A stretch of DNA of 56,493 nt from Patescibacteria group bacterium (GTDB lineage: Bacteria; Patescibacteriota; Minisyncoccia; Moranbacterales; GWC2-37-73), in contig JAKLIO010000003.1 of NCBI GenBank assembly GCA_022709565.1, positions 1 to 56,493 of the forward strand. The letters run 5' to 3'. How positions within the stretch are numbered: the stretch's first letter is position 1; each line of letters starts with the position of its first letter. Positions 5,196 through 54,925 of this stretch are shown here, piece after piece. A program made the position numbers and the translations under genes. The notes under the pieces were generated by a model, which ran no database searches, was not told the origin of the DNA, and saw only the letters and a list, made by a program, of their open reading frames with translations.

Positions 5196-7109
5196 TTATG
5201 ATTTTTTATAAAATATTCCGACTTCATCAGATGCGTAAATTTGCCAGAAATTTTTGAGTCTTTGGAATTGTGAGCTGTCAATTTTTGGATTGAGCATGAT
5301 AAAATTTGTCTTTGTTCCTGCAAAACATTTTTGAGCTTCTGGGCTGCTGGGAAGTGAAATCATCTGATTGGTGCATTGCTCGCGTGGTTTGGTTTCATCC
5401 TCATAGCGCTTAAAATAGCCTCGGGAAAGCGGATAACTATAACCGCGCATAAAGAACAGCTTTATCCAGGAATCCCCAGAAAGATAGTTGTGATCTTTGA
5501 GGACAATATCGCTCTCTGACAAATGATTAGATAAATATTTTGAGGCCGCATAGGTTTGAATAGATTTTTTTATACTGCTATTGGATGTGAGCGTCTGGGA
5601 ATTGTCGCGTAATCCGTCCACTGCAATGAAAATCATAAATGTAAAAAATAAAAGCAAAGCAAAAAGCGGTTTCAGGTAATTTTTATTTTCTCCGGCTTTT
5701 AATAGGGCAAAGAGACGGACAAACGCGTAGGCTGCCACAATAGCAACGGGGAAAACCACATAGCTAGCAATTCTGGTGGAAGGAATATCAATGAAAAGCA
5801 AATCCGGTTTTAGTGACATTAAAACCAAAATGCCCAGCCAACCTAATAAAAACGCCTGATTGTATTTTCCGATTTTGCGCACAAAGAAAAGCAAAGTAAA
5901 TCCTAAAAAGGCGAAGGCAAAACGGGCTTCTCCTGCAGTAGTTTTGAGCTGTGTCAATGTTATGCCGGCGCGGGAATCTTTGCTGGGCGTGCCAACGGCC
6001 GTATCAATAGCTGATGAATTAAGGTAAGTCGGAACGCAGATAATAAATATGAAAGCCGCGCTTAAAATTATGATTGAAATTATTGAAGGAGAAAGAAACA
6101 TTTTCAGCCACTCTTTCGCTTCGAATTTTATGGTGCGAAAATTTAAAATAATAAAAAACAGCAGAGCAAATATAGTTGCGAAAATAAAGACAAAAGTGCT
6201 GAGATGATGCGTGTAGACAAGACCCAAGGTTGCGAAAATAGCCAGAGAAAGCAAATAAGCTTTCTTTTCCGAGAAGGCTTTTATGTAAAAAAGCATGGCC
6301 AATGGAATAAAAAGGTTGCCGATAGCGTTGCCAATAACGCCGCCGCTCACGAATTTTGCCTGTGGAGAAGCCAAGGCATAAAGCGGTCCAATAAGGAAAA
6401 GAGACATAATTGCAATCATATCCCGATGCTTTGTGTTTTTAAAAATTTCACGGGACAAAATGAAAATTGCTAAAATAGACATTATTTGCACCAGAAAAAG
6501 AACCAGAGACGGGAATGAGGAAATGAAATCTTTTCCGGAAATTAGAGCAATAGTAGCAAAGATCAGATGTTCTCCAATTATGAAATCGGCGATTGGCTTC
6601 GGACTTTCAATCGTATAATCACTGCCGATGTCAGCTTTTTCGTAGACAGGCAAATTTCCCGTAGCAACAATCTGCTTAGACCAGTACATATGATGTCCAA
6701 GGTCTGTTGAGGTCGGGGAAATCGTATCTTGAAAGTAGATGGTTTTAATGAAGATTGTCAGAAAAAGCAGGATCAATACCAAAACGACGGATTTTTTTGA
6801 AAGTTCATCGCGGACAATTTCTTCATTTTTTTCTTTTTTAAAATAATAAAAAACAGCACAGCAAATTCCGCAAAAAATGATTATGCCGGAAAGAATGGAC
6901 AAGCGGTTAATGCCAATGCCGGATTTTCCCAAAATAATCATCAAAAAATCAACGATGATGATGCTGAGGCCAAATGAAATAGTGAAAATTTCCAAAATGG
7001 AAAAATTGTTTTTCCGGCGCGTAGATAATAGTAAAAAATAACCGGGAACGAATAGTACCAGGGCGATGGCGACATAGAACATTAATTGTGATGTTATGAA
7101 TTGAAACAT
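5196..7109 (-). CDS. Large polytopic membrane protein, GT-C-like
   Basis: 637 aa with about 12 hydrophobic helices. A long loop after the first helices carries SPTSTDLGHHMYWSKQI, resembling the acidic first-loop motif of GT-C enzymes that use polyprenyl-phosphate sugars. A hydrophilic C-terminal domain of about 130 residues follows the last helix (NSQTLTSNSSIKKS onward). Placement among glycosyltransferases supports a role in surface-glycan transfer or polymerisation. Specific activity is inferred only; a flippase or polymerase is possible. Confidence 0.65.
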   Translation of the reverse strand: MFQFITSQLMFYVAIALVLFVPGYFLLLSTRRKNNFSILEIFTISFGLSIIIVDFLMIILGKSGIGINRLSILSGIIIFCGICCAVFYYFKKEKNEEIVRDELSKKSVVLVLILLFLTIFIKTIYFQDTISPTSTDLGHHMYWSKQIVATGNLPVYEKADIGSDYTIESPKPIADFIIGEHLIFATIALISGKDFISSFPSLVLFLVQIMSILAIFILSREIFKNTKHRDMIAIMSLFLIGPLYALASPQAKFVSGGVIGNAIGNLFIPLAMLFYIKAFSEKKAYLLSLAIFATLGLVYTHHLSTFVFIFATIFALLFFIILNFRTIKFEAKEWLKMFLSPSIISIIILSAAFIFIICVPTYLNSSAIDTAVGTPSKDSRAGITLTQLKTTAGEARFAFAFLGFTLLFFVRKIGKYNQAFLLGWLGILVLMSLKPDLLFIDIPSTRIASYVVFPVAIVAAYAFVRLFALLKAGENKNYLKPLFALLLFFTFMIFIAVDGLRDNSQTLTSNSSIKKSIQTYAASKYLSNHLSESDIVLKDHNYLSGDSWIKLFFMRGYSYPLSRGYFKRYEDETKPREQCTNQMISLPSSPEAQKCFAGTKTNFIMLNPKIDSSQFQRLKNFWQIYASDEVGIFYKKS

Positions 7110-49725: not shown

Positions 49726-49791
49726 TCCCGCACTAACTTTTTACTGGCTAAAGCCGCTGACGCTTCGCGTTTGTAAAAAGTTAGTGCGGGA
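49726..49791. repeat. TCCCGCACTAACTTT palindromic element, copy 2
   Basis: TCCCGCACTAACTTTTTAC (49726-49744) and its exact complement at 49773-49791 (19 bp) around a 28-nt loop that holds GGCT/AGCC. The first 15 bases equal those of copy 1. CAA flanks both sides. Confidence 0.92.
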
Positions 49792-49827
49792 CAAATCCCT
49801 CTGCTTTATTTTTGTATATTTAAGACA

Positions 49828-49867
49828 ACGAAAAAACAGCGTTCCAACAATTTGGTACCCGCTGTTT
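49828..49867 (-). terminator. Terminator ending the hairpin-array transcript
   Basis: AAACAGCG (49834-49841) pairs with CGCTGTTT (49860-49867). On the minus strand it ends in TTTTTTCG, so transcription from the 52.5-kb promoter would stop here, about 265 nt past the last stop codon. Confidence 0.85.
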
Positions 49868-50131
49868 ATATAATTACCTTCCATTGGAAGGATAATTTTC
49901 AATTTTACGAAACCTTATTAAAGGTTTAAATACTGCTTTCGAAACTCTTGCGAGTTTAGGTATTGCTTTCGATACTTCCGCCCACATAGTGGCTCGGCCG
50001 TATAAATTCAGACATCCATAGGATCATCTGATGACCAAACCTCCATAGGAGCGTTTGATTTATCACCTGCATAGCAGCGTGATGGTTGTGAGAGTCTGAA
50101 CTGTTTCCAGTTCAGACTCTCAGGTTAAATT
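49868..50131 (-). ncRNA. Array of nine tandem hairpins, long structured 3' UTR or RNA
   Basis: Minus strand, in order: a 14-bp stem with GAAA loop (50121-50090); four units at 50083-50062, 50057-50036, 50031-50008 and 49997-49978. These share outer stem, asymmetric C/CN internal loop, 4-bp inner stem and a UAU loop, with inner stems (plus strand) CTGC/GCAG, CTCC/GGAG, ATCC/GGAT and CCAC/GTGG. Then GTAT/ATAC (49975-49960), AAACTC-GCAA-GAGTTT (49957-49942), AAACCTT/AAGGTTT (49927-49910) and ATTA-CCTTCC (49896-49873). GNRA loops appear only on the minus strand. The family is unknown to me. Confidence 0.75.
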
Positions 50132-51046
50132 TTAGCTGATCTTAATTTCTTTAGTCACATTGACCAAATAATTAATCAGCGCTTCTTCCTGTGTTCCAGC
50201 CAGTCCACCTTTGAGGAACTTTGTCATCGTTCCGCGGACATACTTTGCAGCCAAGCCTCGCTTGTGTTTGTCGAGAACTTGCCGTTCAAAGTCAGCTGGA
50301 TTTTGACTGCCGTTCGTACGTTCAATGTAGAGCGTAAGGTAACACTCATCATCAGACACCGAGAAATTACACTCAATGTGTTTTCCCTCGATGTCATACG
50401 TAAACGGTGTCGGGTCAAAATATTCATTGACCGCCTTCGCCGTTTCAACCGGAATTGTTTCCCTGGCTACATTGATTTTATCACTGAGATTCTCACTTAC
50501 TATTTCTAATTTATTGAGAATCTCATCATCCTTTCCATCCTTACGGAAGAAAATGAGATAAATAAGGAGACCAATAACAGCCCCTATAAGAATAGCCAGA
50601 ATCCAGGTATTGTTCGCGCCGTTGTTCAGAATGGCTTTTCCGTAAGCCACTATATTTTTGTTTGCAGTATCGGCATGTTTGAATGCCTTATCTGCAGTTT
50701 TGGCGGCTTTTTCTGTTTCGTTCGCCAAAATTGTTACGTTGTCAGCCAGCGTTGTAACTGCTGACTGAGTGTTAATCTGAACAACAATCATTTTGCGCTG
50801 CTCAGATGCTAGAGCGTTAGTGCTCTTCTCTAGCTTCTTCAATCTGGCAGAGTTGCCCTTGATTGCTTTCAACATCTTTGCAGATGCATCGGGAACCCGA
50901 GCTGCGTATGTGGGATTTTTATACGCTGCTGTAGATGACGATACGCCAACCTGGCGCTCCCCGTTGACTGTAACAGCCTGCGCCAAGGGCGCAAGCCACA
51001 TTGTAATAACTACGATGGCCGCAATGGCCAAAATAAATCTCTTCAT
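50132..51046 (-). CDS. Exported coiled-coil membrane protein, unknown function
   Basis: 304 aa: signal peptide (about 1-24, cut near AQA), an extracytoplasmic helical/coiled-coil part (about 50-145, KKLEKSTNALASEQRK; ANETEKAAKTADKAF), one membrane helix (about 150-167), then a cytoplasmic domain ending in EEALINYLVNVTKEIKIS. TTTGGAGGAG is a strong ribosome site. Codon use looks more GC-rich than neighbours. Second gene of a two-gene operon whose non-coding parts are full of hairpins. No family recognised. Confidence 0.75.
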   Translation of the reverse strand: MKRFILAIAAIVVITMWLAPLAQAVTVNGERQVGVSSSTAAYKNPTYAARVPDASAKMLKAIKGNSARLKKLEKSTNALASEQRKMIVVQINTQSAVTTLADNVTILANETEKAAKTADKAFKHADTANKNIVAYGKAILNNGANNTWILAILIGAVIGLLIYLIFFRKDGKDDEILNKLEIVSENLSDKINVARETIPVETAKAVNEYFDPTPFTYDIEGKHIECNFSVSDDECYLTLYIERTNGSQNPADFERQVLDKHKRGLAAKYVRGTMTKFLKGGLAGTQEEALINYLVNVTKEIKIS

Positions 51047-51070
51047 TTTCTCTCCTCCAAATATTGGGTT

Positions 51071-51098
51071 CAGGTGAGCTTCCTAAGAAGCTCACCTG
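51071..51098 (-). other. Intercistronic 12-bp hairpin
   Basis: CAGGTGAGCTTC (51071-51082) and GAAGCTCACCTG (51087-51098) are exact complements around CTAA, 9 bp past the stop of the 411-aa gene. There is no T tract, so it is probably an RNA stability or processing element rather than a terminator. Confidence 0.85.
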
Positions 51099-51107
51099 GT
51101 TAAGTGT

Positions 51108-52343
51108 TTACAATTGCGGGACTTTTTCAACCCGCTTCTCCGCTGCGAATCTGTCGGCTGCACTCTGTCCATTGAGAACATTGATACAGCCTGCCCAGAA
51201 GTAGTAATCCTGAGCGATCAAACGATCCGCTTCAGCCTGATTAGCTTTGATGTCGTAGCCTTTCAGGTAATTACGCTCCGCGATCTGAAACTGCTCGATC
51301 GCCGAGTTGAGATGACGCTTGTCACCTGTACACTGATACAAGTCGATGTAAGCCTCTCCCAACTTTGAACGCAAGCGGAGGTTGTTCATGCACCAACGAG
51401 TGCATTCCTTTATCCGTTGCTTCAAGTCCTCGATCCGAGCCCAAATACTGCTCGGGTCGCAAGCTTTCGGCTGCTCATAGGCTATTGGTGCTCCGCAGGC
51501 AAAGTTGCCACTAGAAACACCCTCGTATGAGGTGACCATGAACATATAAATAGTTCTGGTCAAAGTCGCAGAATCGCTAGAGGAAGCCCCTATAGAAGCA
51601 GACGCCGCAACTCCGTTTGTGTGCGCGCCAGTGCCCCCAATGCCTAGGGATGATGCCTGAGACTCTCTCTCAAACATGTAATCCCAATAGATTAGGACAC
51701 TAGTAGATCTTGTCTGTTGAACAACATCCAGAACCGTTTCCGCGAAGATGCCGATATCAGGGCTATCATAGTCGCTTCGACCCTCGGCCTTTCCACTCCG
51801 CTTTCCTTCACCGAATCCGGGTTTCTTGTTGATTATCCGAATAACGGTGTCGTCATTCAACTCCCTGTTGGCTCTGAAAATGACCTTGGTTTCAACTCTT
51901 CCAGTGAAAAGGGTTTTGAGGCCCTTTCCTCTTTTATTGAAAAAGCTTCCACCAGCAGCCATTTCCTTCAGCTGACCAATCGTGAACTCGGAATAATCCG
52001 GATCACAAATGATCTGCTTCCAACCTTGTGGAACTTCTGAAGTCGGAGCATTAACGAATGCGCTTAATAGTGGCGCCGTCACGTAATTCTTGGCGGCTTC
52101 GTATGTATTTCCGCCCGAATTACTTGAGCTTTTGCTCTTGCTGTTTGCGGCCTGAAACTGCCACTCAGACTGAATTTGCCACTCAGACTGAATTTGACTT
52201 TGATCCTGCTCAGCGTCTCCACCGGTTCCAATTCCCGTTGCCGTAGCTCTATTATCAATACCAATTGTCTGTGCTAACGAAACGCTCGCACAGAAAACAA
52301 TTGCCATAACCGCGACCATGATGGCCAGAAAACATTTTCTCAT
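51108..52343 (-). CDS. Secreted protein with Q/S repeats and TPR-like C-terminus
   Basis: 411 aa: signal peptide (about 1-24, cut near SLAQ). Residues 25-75 are Gly/Gln/Ser-rich (RATATGIGTGGDAEQDQSQ, then QSEWQIQSEWQF) and resemble the sortase substrates at 53611 and 54278. A beta-rich middle follows (VLIYWDYMFERESQ; TRTIYMFMVTSYEG), and a helical C-terminus (about 310-395) with TPR-like AYIDLYQCTGDKRHLNSAIE. GAGGAGGG precedes the ATG. Function unknown; probably a surface or matrix protein. Confidence 0.75.
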   Translation of the reverse strand: MRKCFLAIMVAVMAIVFCASVSLAQTIGIDNRATATGIGTGGDAEQDQSQIQSEWQIQSEWQFQAANSKSKSSSNSGGNTYEAAKNYVTAPLLSAFVNAPTSEVPQGWKQIICDPDYSEFTIGQLKEMAAGGSFFNKRGKGLKTLFTGRVETKVIFRANRELNDDTVIRIINKKPGFGEGKRSGKAEGRSDYDSPDIGIFAETVLDVVQQTRSTSVLIYWDYMFERESQASSLGIGGTGAHTNGVAASASIGASSSDSATLTRTIYMFMVTSYEGVSSGNFACGAPIAYEQPKACDPSSIWARIEDLKQRIKECTRWCMNNLRLRSKLGEAYIDLYQCTGDKRHLNSAIEQFQIAERNYLKGYDIKANQAEADRLIAQDYYFWAGCINVLNGQSAADRFAAEKRVEKVPQL

Positions 52344-52546
52344 GATTCCCTCCTCGGCCTTTCCGGCCTTCTATCGTTATTTTAATTTCTATTCAATTGG
52401 AAAATAACTCATGCAATCCACACTGGATTAGAGCATGAACTACATGTCGCGTTACTTCTATATTTTCACAGAGCTTTTTTAAAAATTTCATGTCCCATAA
52501 AGTGGGCATTGAAAAGCTCTGAGTTAAATACAGATATATTGTTAAC
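52344..52546 (-). promoter_or_regulatory. Structured 5' leader of the two-gene operon
   Basis: About 200 nt between the start site and ATG holds four hairpins: CAGAGCTTTT/AAAAGCTCTG with inner CCCA/TGGG (52469-52522), TCATGC/GCATGA with inner AATCC/GGATT (52409-52438), GTTATTTT/AAAATAAC (52376-52408), and GGCC/GGCC just before the ribosome site (52356-52368). No known riboswitch was recognised. Confidence 0.7.
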
Positions 52547-52552
52547 CGTCCA

Positions 52553-52580
52553 TTGTAGCAAAAAAAAGAGAGTTTGTCAA
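52553..52580 (-). promoter_or_regulatory. Consensus promoter of the two-gene secreted operon
   Basis: Minus strand TTGACA (52580-52575), 16-nt spacer with a T tract, TACAAT (52558-52553). Confidence 0.85.
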
Positions 52581-53610: not shown

Positions 53611-54153
53611 TTATTTAAGCTTGTTAGAATACTTTTTAACTCCAAGTCCTGCAGCTAAAATGGACAATAGGGCGATTCCGGCTAAAACAACTGAATTGCT
53701 TCCTGTGGCTGGTACGCTGCCATGCCTGTAGCTTGCTCTGTGTGAACTGTGTGAATGATCACCATCGTCTTCATCAACATCAACATCAATGTCTGTTTCA
53801 GAAGAAGTAGTTGAAGTTGCGCTGCCGCCTGTGGCTGACTGCGATTGACTCTGGGATTGCGAAGAAGACTGAGAACCGGCTTGTGCTTGCAATTGACCGC
53901 CTGATCCAGATCCTGATCCTGGCTGACCATCTGAATCCAGTAGTTGAGCTTGCGCCTGAGCTTGAGCTTGGCGTTGGCTCTGAGATTGACCCTGAGATTG
54001 AGTCGCACTGCCACCAGTTGCAGTCGCAGTAGAAGTGTTTTCGTTGTTGATATCAATGTCGACATCAGCAAAAGCTACATTCGCAGCATAAAACAAGGCT
54101 ACGACTGAAATAGCAATTATTGACAAATAAGTTAAGCTTTTTTTCATTGTCAT
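53611..54153 (-). CDS. Sortase substrate, Q/S-rich surface protein (copy 1)
   Basis: 180 aa: signal peptide (about 1-29), then DVDIDINN, STATATGGSATQSQ, a QSQSQRQAQAQAQAQ tract, a Gly/Ser linker, SQSQSQSQSATGGSAT, TDIDVDVDEDDGD, and a C-terminal sorting signal: VPATGSN, a hydrophobic helix (VVLAGIALLSILAAGLG) and a KKYSNKLK tail. The two TGGSAT blocks and the two DID/DVD blocks make the region quasi-mirror-symmetric. The layout is that of LPxTG proteins anchored by the adjacent sortase. Confidence 0.88.
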   Translation of the reverse strand: MTMKKSLTYLSIIAISVVALFYAANVAFADVDIDINNENTSTATATGGSATQSQGQSQSQRQAQAQAQAQLLDSDGQPGSGSGSGGQLQAQAGSQSSSQSQSQSQSATGGSATSTTSSETDIDVDVDEDDGDHSHSSHRASYRHGSVPATGSNSVVLAGIALLSILAAGLGVKKYSNKLK

Positions 54154-54277: not shown

Positions 54278-54925
54278 TTATTTAAGCTTGTTAGAATACT
54301 TTTTAACTCCAAGTCCTGCAGCTAAAATAGCCATCAAGGCGATTCCAACCAAAACAGCTGAATTGCTTCCTGTAGCTGGCACGCTGCCATGGCTGTAGCT
54401 TGCTCTGTGTGAACTGTTTGAATTGTGTGAGCTTCCTGATCCATGTGAATTATATGAATAATGATGATGAGAATCACCATCGTTATCGCCATCATCACCA
54501 TCGTCGCCATCATCACCATCGTCGCCATCATCACCATCGTCTTCATCAACATCAACATCAATGTCTGTTTCAGAAGAAGTAGTTGAAGTTGCGCTGCCGC
54601 CTGTGGCTGACTGCGATTGACTCTGGGATTGCGAAGAAGACTGAGAACCGGCTTGTGCTTGCAATTGACCGCCTGATCCAGATCCTGATCCTGGCTGACC
54701 ATCTGAATCCAGTAGTTGAGCTTGCGCCTGAGCTTGAGCTTGGCGTTGGCTCTGAGATTGACCCTGAGATTGAGTCGCACTGCCACCAGTTGCAGTCGCA
54801 GTAGAAGTGTTTTCGTTGTTGATATCAATGTCGACATCAGCAAAAGCTACATTCGCAGCATAAAACAAGGCTACGACTGAAATAGCAATTATTGACAAAT
54901 AAGTTAAGCTTTTTTTCATTGTCAT
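54278..54925 (-). CDS. Sortase substrate, Q/S-rich surface protein (copy 2)
   Basis: 215 aa. The first ~130 residues equal copy 1. The acidic block is then expanded to repeated DDG units (about 131-150), followed by SHHHYSYNSHGSGSSHNSNS and the sorting signal VPATGSN, helix and KKYSNKLK. The Asp-rich run could bind calcium or other cations and the His-rich run metals; this is inference. Own promoter, so each paralogue is a separate unit. Confidence 0.88.
   Translation of the reverse strand: MTMKKSLTYLSIIAISVVALFYAANVAFADVDIDINNENTSTATATGGSATQSQGQSQSQRQAQAQAQAQLLDSDGQPGSGSGSGGQLQAQAGSQSSSQSQSQSQSATGGSATSTTSSETDIDVDVDEDDGDDGDDGDDGDDGDDGDNDGDSHHHYSYNSHGSGSSHNSNSSHRASYSHGSVPATGSNSAVLVGIALMAILAAGLGVKKYSNKLK

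Follow-up and report, generated by a model that had tools for sequence, protein, structure and literature searches.

A two-gene operon on the minus strand of the window (the whole 56,493-nt stretch of DNA analyzed here, contig G000:C23 of a 742-kb, 61-contig draft genome) encodes two proteins with signal peptides, P1 and P2, and its transcript ends in an array of small bulged hairpins that is almost certainly a conserved functional RNA element. P1 (411 amino acids [aa]; 51108–52343) is predicted to be secreted, and combines its signal peptide with a Q/N-rich stretch, a beta-containing part and a C-terminal helical domain. P2 (304 aa; 50132–51046) is a long form, with a signal peptide, a coiled-coil-like part, a transmembrane (TM) segment at aa 149–167 and a 137-aa C-terminal part; it is predicted to be membrane-anchored with its C-terminal part in the cytosol, and a domain of about 119 aa within that part (50135–50491) is our proposed partner of the array. 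The operon was originally predicted to be wrapped in hairpins from a consensus promoter to an array and terminator, and both ends were borne out: an extended -10 promoter (TTGACA-17-TACAAT with extended TG, 11 of 12 matches; 52552–52580) lies upstream, and the array together with an intrinsic terminator (49831–49867, recognized by sequence and fold) occupies 49831–50083, all on the minus strand. The promoter pattern TTGAC...TA...T is present in 19 of 22 leaders of related loci.

Relatives were sought in 128 genomes of the same order. P1 was found in 26 of them at an E-value (E) of 0.001, and the full analysis covered 22 P1 loci; three genomes with partial or weak matches (G040, G024 and G056) were excluded, and G012, in which P1 and P2 lie on separate contigs, stood outside the 22 and provided its P2 and array as a test case (L088). 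A further locus, L089 of G113, was found through the P2 C-terminal domain only.

Three hairpins of the array share one design, in which a lower stem of 5, 7 or 6 bp is followed by a bulged G, always on the 5' strand, an upper stem of 4 bp and a UAU loop (50062–50083, 50034–50059 and 50008–50031, respectively, found by a strict pattern scan and by energy folding); their stem sequences differ. A fourth hairpin (49978–49997, from sequence and a span-limited fold), with an imperfect lower stem, CCAC/GTGG pairing and a UAU loop, is a looser version that the strict finder missed, and similar CCAC...GTGG hairpins occur in L028 and, by eye, in L029. Beyond it lie two 23-nt direct repeats with small GCAA- and TAAT-looped hairpins (49910–49976; repeat search and fold) and a 3' element hairpin, ...UCCUUCC AAU GGAAGG... 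(49872–49897; pattern scan); an A-rich hairpin of the CCUUC...GAAGG type was also seen by eye just before the terminator in several relatives.

The strict scan (lower stem of at least 5 bp, one 5' bulge, 3–6 bp and a small loop) gave four hits in the 3' region of the window, namely the three array hairpins and the 3' element, where 30 shuffled versions averaged 0.17; with the bulge placed on the 3' strand it gave none in that region. Across the 16 long-form loci, pattern scanning found 49 hairpins with a 5' bulge versus 15 with a 3' bulge, and energy folds blind to the motif, applied to the first 330 nt of the 16 long-form 3' regions and requiring 3–6 apical pairs before the bulge, gave 42 single 5'-bulge versus 2 3'-bulge hairpins. 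Over both strands of 175 kb of the same genome, the array was the only cluster of three hairpins of the scanned pattern within 160 nt.

Within any one genome the hairpins mostly share bulge base and loop, which differ between genomes, while the architecture is kept. In a permutation test that took one genome from each close group (12 genomes and 36 hairpins, with bulges accepted after 2–6 pairs and hairpins excluded if they began 25 nt or less from the stop), the bulge base was the same in 0.91 of within-genome pairs versus 0.36 when permuted, and within-genome loop similarity was 0.65 versus 0.45 (0 of 5000 permutations as high in either case), with stems that differ. Other combinations include a bulged G with ACCC-type loops in L028, A with AGA in L026, G with AA-rich loops in L073 and T with AAU in L034. 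An alignment of 12 units chosen by fit, in which pairing is 100% by selection, contained 42 cells changed on both sides, indicating that the array stems vary freely. MAFFT misaligned the units of the three-hairpin region. No Rfam family reached its gathering threshold in the window or in 14 related loci; sub-threshold matches (up to E 1) looked like chance and were discarded.

The array accompanies one domain of one protein. P2 exists in a long form, with 112–184 residues past the TM segment, and a short form, with 4–48. The C-terminal domain of the long form has one strong match each in 18 of the 128 genomes; we disregarded weak matches (E 0.03–0.3), namely those in seven additional genomes and a second one in G015. 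When 383 genomes sampled from the class were searched, only two partial matches lay outside the order (E 8.5e-5 and 9.3e-4), both to the first third of the profile and probably reflecting coiled coil. The domain is highly divergent, at 12–25% identity to that of the window. Read by eye, the hairpin array is present in 17 of the 18 loci with the domain (16 in the first reading, plus L088, fetched afterwards as a test) versus none of the six short-P2 loci. Among loci where automated terminator finding gave a sensible result, the stretch from stop codon to terminator holds 4–10 hairpins in 13 long forms, 2 in G113 and 0–2 in three short forms and a short P2-like paralog. A strict terminator rule missed most terminators; a second rule came up empty in the window, L073, L020 and L025, ended prematurely in L069 and L070 and gave a spurious result in L068, and the terminators of these seven were judged by eye, both rules having missed that of the window. 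The paralog, which ends in a plain terminator with no array, belongs to a second operon of G109 (L123, G109:C34, 4499–7058) made up of a Q-rich gene, a sortase, a leader element and P1-like and short P2-like genes.

The long or short state of P2 changed at least four times on the sortase tree (21 rows) and at least six times on the P1 tree (22 rows), of which well supported branches force two and three changes, respectively. Between close relatives, the C-terminal domain and the array change jointly while the N-terminal half of P2 or the 3' element stays. For L022 and L023, the N half is 88% identical, the domain 25% and the array 46%; for L022 and L088, the corresponding values are 45%, 71% and 66%; for L028 and L029, they are 27%, 42% and 57%; and the 3' element of L022 and L029 is 91% identical. 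The other seven pairs have identities of 12–22% in the domain and 25–32% in the array. (The L088 P2 was read one codon past its stop in these and the Mantel comparisons, which hardly affects the identities.) Such joint change is what recognition of the array by the domain predicts, with DNA adjacency as the alternative cause. Separately, the sortase and P1 trees conflict, and P1, the P2 halves and the arrays are mixed among L022, L023, L029, L030 and L072, a sequence pattern pointing to recombination at this surface locus.

The original prediction proposed two checks of hairpin density, against shuffled sequences and against the rest of the genome. The 3' region (49820–50145) has a fold-energy z of -7.7, with none of 100 shuffles as stable. 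In a survey of 106 intergenic strand-regions of 90–1200 nt from the window and eight further stretches of its genome (175 kb in all, or 24% of the assembly, with crude gene calls), it ranked first (z -9.6; survey mean -2.4, SD 2.1), so that the predicted excess holds for this region. It does not extend to the leader, which folds into about four hairpins as had been claimed (z -4.1 versus 200 shuffles) but ranked only 25th of 106 (z -3.8) and is therefore not unusual by energy alone; the 61-nt P1–P2 gap was below the size limit of the survey. Strongly structured intergenic stretches also occur at 392–482 of the window (z -8.0) and at 744–1015 of L096 (z -6.9).

Two hairpins lie close behind the stop codons. 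The intercistronic one (51071–51098, minus strand) has 12 bp and begins 9 nt after the P1 stop, exactly as predicted; that behind P2 (50089–50122, minus strand), given in the prediction as 14 bp at a distance of 10 bp, has 15 bp, a GAAA loop and a distance of 9 nt. Neither has a T tract, with one T in the next 8 nt after each, which upholds the earlier observation and does not fit intrinsic terminators. P1–P2 spacers of at least 45 nt occur in 15 of the 22 loci and all hold a 10–15 bp hairpin, which covaries (both-side changes in 10 of 12 pairs, 15 sequences) and is followed by no T tract in any of the 15 (0–3 T in the next 8 nt); the spacers of the remaining seven loci, at 10–22 nt, leave no room for such a hairpin and have none. 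All 22 P2 genes have an 11–19 bp hairpin within 29 nt of the stop. In the 16 long-P2 loci, 0–5 of the next 8 nt are T (highest in L073, with 5, and L023, with 4), and in the short-P2 loci L020, L021 and L032 a T tract follows directly. A strong hairpin soon after a stop codon, within an operon and without termination, is the arrangement of segmental mRNA stability, and the two hairpins look like mRNA stabilizers of the ordinary kind. Going by that known arrangement, they would protect 3' ends and give the P1 and P2 messages different lifetimes. In L068 (G112; 6270–6887, reversed locus), a second short P2-like protein follows P2, and each of the two has its own GC-rich hairpin behind it.

The leader contains a conserved RNA element of two helices round an internal loop (52457–52534, minus strand; consensus UUUGANUCGG ... 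CCGUNAAAAUAUAG), supported by covariation. It is kept in sequence and structure in 18 of the 22 loci and is, by eye, absent or altered in L032 and L069–L071; changes on both sides were found in 12 of 16 pairs over the 18 loci, and the ends of the element were set by eye, a choice that favors the outer helix. A covariance model of the element, R1, had a strong match (E 1.4e-4 or better) in 19 of the 128 genomes, including G012, whose sequence had not gone into building it; not counted were a reverse-strand echo in G016 and, in G045 and G078, weak matches (E 0.01–0.1). In 18 of these 19 genomes the element was seen in one copy, in front of P1, and in G109 in two, the second preceding the paralogous operon; with strict filters and 39 first-look candidates scored per genome, rare further copies could be missed. 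As seen here, the element acts like an operon-specific cis element and not like a riboswitch spread over the genome. The leader also has a second hairpin of 15 bp (52410–52446, minus strand; sequence and fold, with the leader folds of relatives read by eye only) and a small GGCC hairpin beside the ribosome-binding site (52356–52368, minus strand), similar to one in L020 and L069–L071.

On the minus strand of the window, two Q-rich LPXTG-like proteins, a sortase (Pfam PF04203), the P1–P2 operon, a membrane-protein gene and sugar genes are found together. The membrane protein ends in RLNRLLKGD and is Wzz-like by our own reading, with no family match above the curated cut-off. In nearly all of the 22 related loci, P1 and P2 likewise lie between sortase or Q-rich genes and a Wzz-like, glycosyltransferase or sugar gene, the exceptions being L073, which has no adjoining sortase, and L071, where a transposase-like gene intervenes. 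The four named P1 relatives come from records of Patescibacteria, Parcubacteria (two) and Candidatus Moraniibacteriota. P1 itself has no Pfam family match and a poor structure prediction (pLDDT 54), and its C-terminal helices are weakly TPR-like (best E 0.03, none at 0.001). The tandem Q-rich LPXTG-like proteins (53611–54153 and 54278–54925) are identical over their first ~130 residues, and the longer bears an expanded acidic repeat. Just 3' of the operon terminator, beside the promoter of the next gene, is a perfect 19-bp inverted repeat (49726–49791).

The original prediction treated all of these hairpins as one phenomenon, which is too simple, as the transcript bears at least three kinds of RNA element: the leader element, the stop-proximal hairpins and the 3' array. 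Of its two explanations, mRNA stabilization fits the stop-proximal hairpins, whereas an RNA with its own role better fits the leader element and the array, both conserved, specialized structures, the latter tracking one protein domain. The co-occurrence of array and domain suggests that P2 may grip its own message, and the signal peptide, TM segment and C-terminal tail of P2 would place the domain on the same side of the membrane as the RNA. We favor, at a little short of an even chance, the reading in which the array serves as a multi-site cis RNA element recognized by the cytosolic C-terminal domain of P2 itself. The leader element would probably set P1 expression. During synthesis and insertion of P2, the cytosolic domain would settle on the array of the mRNA that encodes it, and the occupied array would either keep this mRNA at the membrane, so that P1 and P2 are secreted as they are translated, or exert feedback by stabilizing or silencing it; we regard membrane tether and feedback as about equally probable. 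A more specific version seems to us rather improbable: the bulge base and loop would form a lineage-specific barcode that coevolves with the cytosolic domain reading it, the membrane protein would thereby hold its own mRNA at the membrane, and domain and barcode would be exchanged as a cassette.

Several observations weigh against recognition of the array by P2. In G113, which has a divergent domain, there is one small unbulged hairpin between stop hairpin and terminator. The canonical bulged core occurs in at least two hairpins in only 12 of the 16 long loci, with one each in L022, L034 and L071 and none in L031, and the short loci L025, L027 and L032 have two, one and one, respectively; polarity is weaker in L029, L034 and L035, each with three 3'-bulge hairpins in the pattern scan. 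In a partial Mantel test on 17 loci, the domain and the N half of P2 were equal predictors of array similarity (0.20 and 0.20, with 52 and 73 of 5000 permutations as high, respectively), and because domain and array are neighbors in the DNA, a single deletion or exchange could affect both at once even if they had no connection in function. The domain shows no basic character (K+R about equal to D+E in 10 long forms looked at), its predicted structure is too poor for use (pLDDT 38.5), it matches none of the known RNA-binding families, and it has no convincing family match in searches of PDB profiles, where cystatin (E 0.005) and coiled coils came up, or of Pfam, PADLOC and PHROGs, where scattered weak matches came up. 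That the domain is not basic and has no known fold calls for caution about binding.

The same adjacency lends itself to the explanation that array and other hairpins are generic mRNA stabilizers, or barriers to 3' exonucleases, for highly expressed surface proteins, as domain and array are contiguous and a single deletion removes both; such a role is compatible with the stop-proximal hairpins, which follow P2 in all 22 loci and occupy 15 of the 22 P1–P2 spacers. A generic barrier, however, does not need uniformity of bulge base, bulge polarity or loop, and short-P2 relatives of the same genes manage without the array; we consider this explanation unlikely. Largely uniform loops and bulges could also be read by a different factor, be it an RNase, an RNA chaperone or a base-pairing RNA, perhaps at a row of processing sites that free a stable 3'-derived small RNA (sRNA). 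sRNAs derived from 3' untranslated regions (UTRs) are bounded by a stop hairpin and a terminator, and so is the array. A general factor, however, leaves the absence of the array from all six short-P2 loci unexplained, and the lack of a second array cluster in the sampled 24% of the genome means that no wider set of arrays is visible there; we judge a factor of this kind improbable. Finally, the marked divergence of the domain (12–25% identity to that of the window) and its change together with the array between close relatives would also be expected if the array were an RNA partner controlling the domain as an effector, in the manner of toxin-antitoxin or immunity systems, with a fast-diversifying domain and an RNA that changes along with it. 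We think this very improbable: the domain forms the end of a membrane protein, and relatives keep the gene for that protein without it; toxin and defense models gave only weak matches, each to a single member (Ntox46, E 0.043; HORMA, E 0.022; Csx28, E 0.048); and there is no direct-repeat array of the type III antitoxin kind.

If recognition of the array by P2 is correct, the operon would exemplify, in nature, a membrane protein linked to its mRNA through a lineage-variable RNA code, and a testable model for mRNA localization in bacteria and for coevolving RNA–protein recognition. Even without binding, it provides two RNA elements, leader and array, from a single patescibacterial order (probably Candidatus Moraniibacteriota, the name borne by one of the four named relatives), and neither has a match in Rfam; the C-terminal domain falls into no convincing protein family. 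Among the literature matches listed, nothing concerned this operon and none joined Moranbacteria with hairpins.

Several known systems share parts of this arrangement. Segmental mRNA stability hairpins are known from the bacterial operons malEF and puf; like those here, they are stop-proximal, intercistronic and lack a T tract, but this model covers the two stop-proximal hairpins and not the uniform bulge and loop of the array. The iron-responsive element (IRE) is a 5' bulged hairpin, as are the array units, and CsrB carries several protein sites in one RNA, as proposed for the array; unlike them, the array of the window has no CAGUGN loop, no GGA loops and no Rfam match. A CsrB/RsmZ-type sRNA, with GGA in its apical loops, likewise does not fit loops that are UAU in the window and AAU, ACCC, AGA and others in relatives. 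A type III toxin-antitoxin RNA does not fit an array that lies downstream of the gene, with differing stems and without tandem direct repeats, nor were the identical direct repeats with unique spacers of a CRISPR array found. MS2/PP7-type phage coat proteins use autogenous RNA operator hairpins, and the array resembles these in its short recurrent hairpin with one unpaired 5'-side base, a few base pairs, a small fixed loop and a free stem. It differs in being tandem, in a 3' UTR and in a bacterial membrane-protein operon, with binding that is here only proposed from sequence, and the PHROGs matches of the P2 domain are weak and scattered (best E 0.0027). TIGR arrays, as described in PMC12045711, occur in bacteria of the candidate phyla radiation and in phages, and resemble the array in lying beside a gene, with repeats fixed per locus and variable between loci. 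In contrast to these, the array has no spacers, has small loops only and is without a Nop-domain match; no Nop domain came up in Pfam scans of P1, P2 and three other proteins of the window, 16 C-terminal domains and 15 P1 proteins, and the 3-nt loops in the window and an array without tandem repeats by Tandem Repeats Finder also speak against TIGR-Tas. Aconitase B (AcnB) already provides the principle that a protein in bacteria can act on the 3' UTR of the mRNA encoding it (PMC4150767); AcnB is a soluble enzyme, whereas the binder proposed here would be the tail of a membrane protein, and its site the array.

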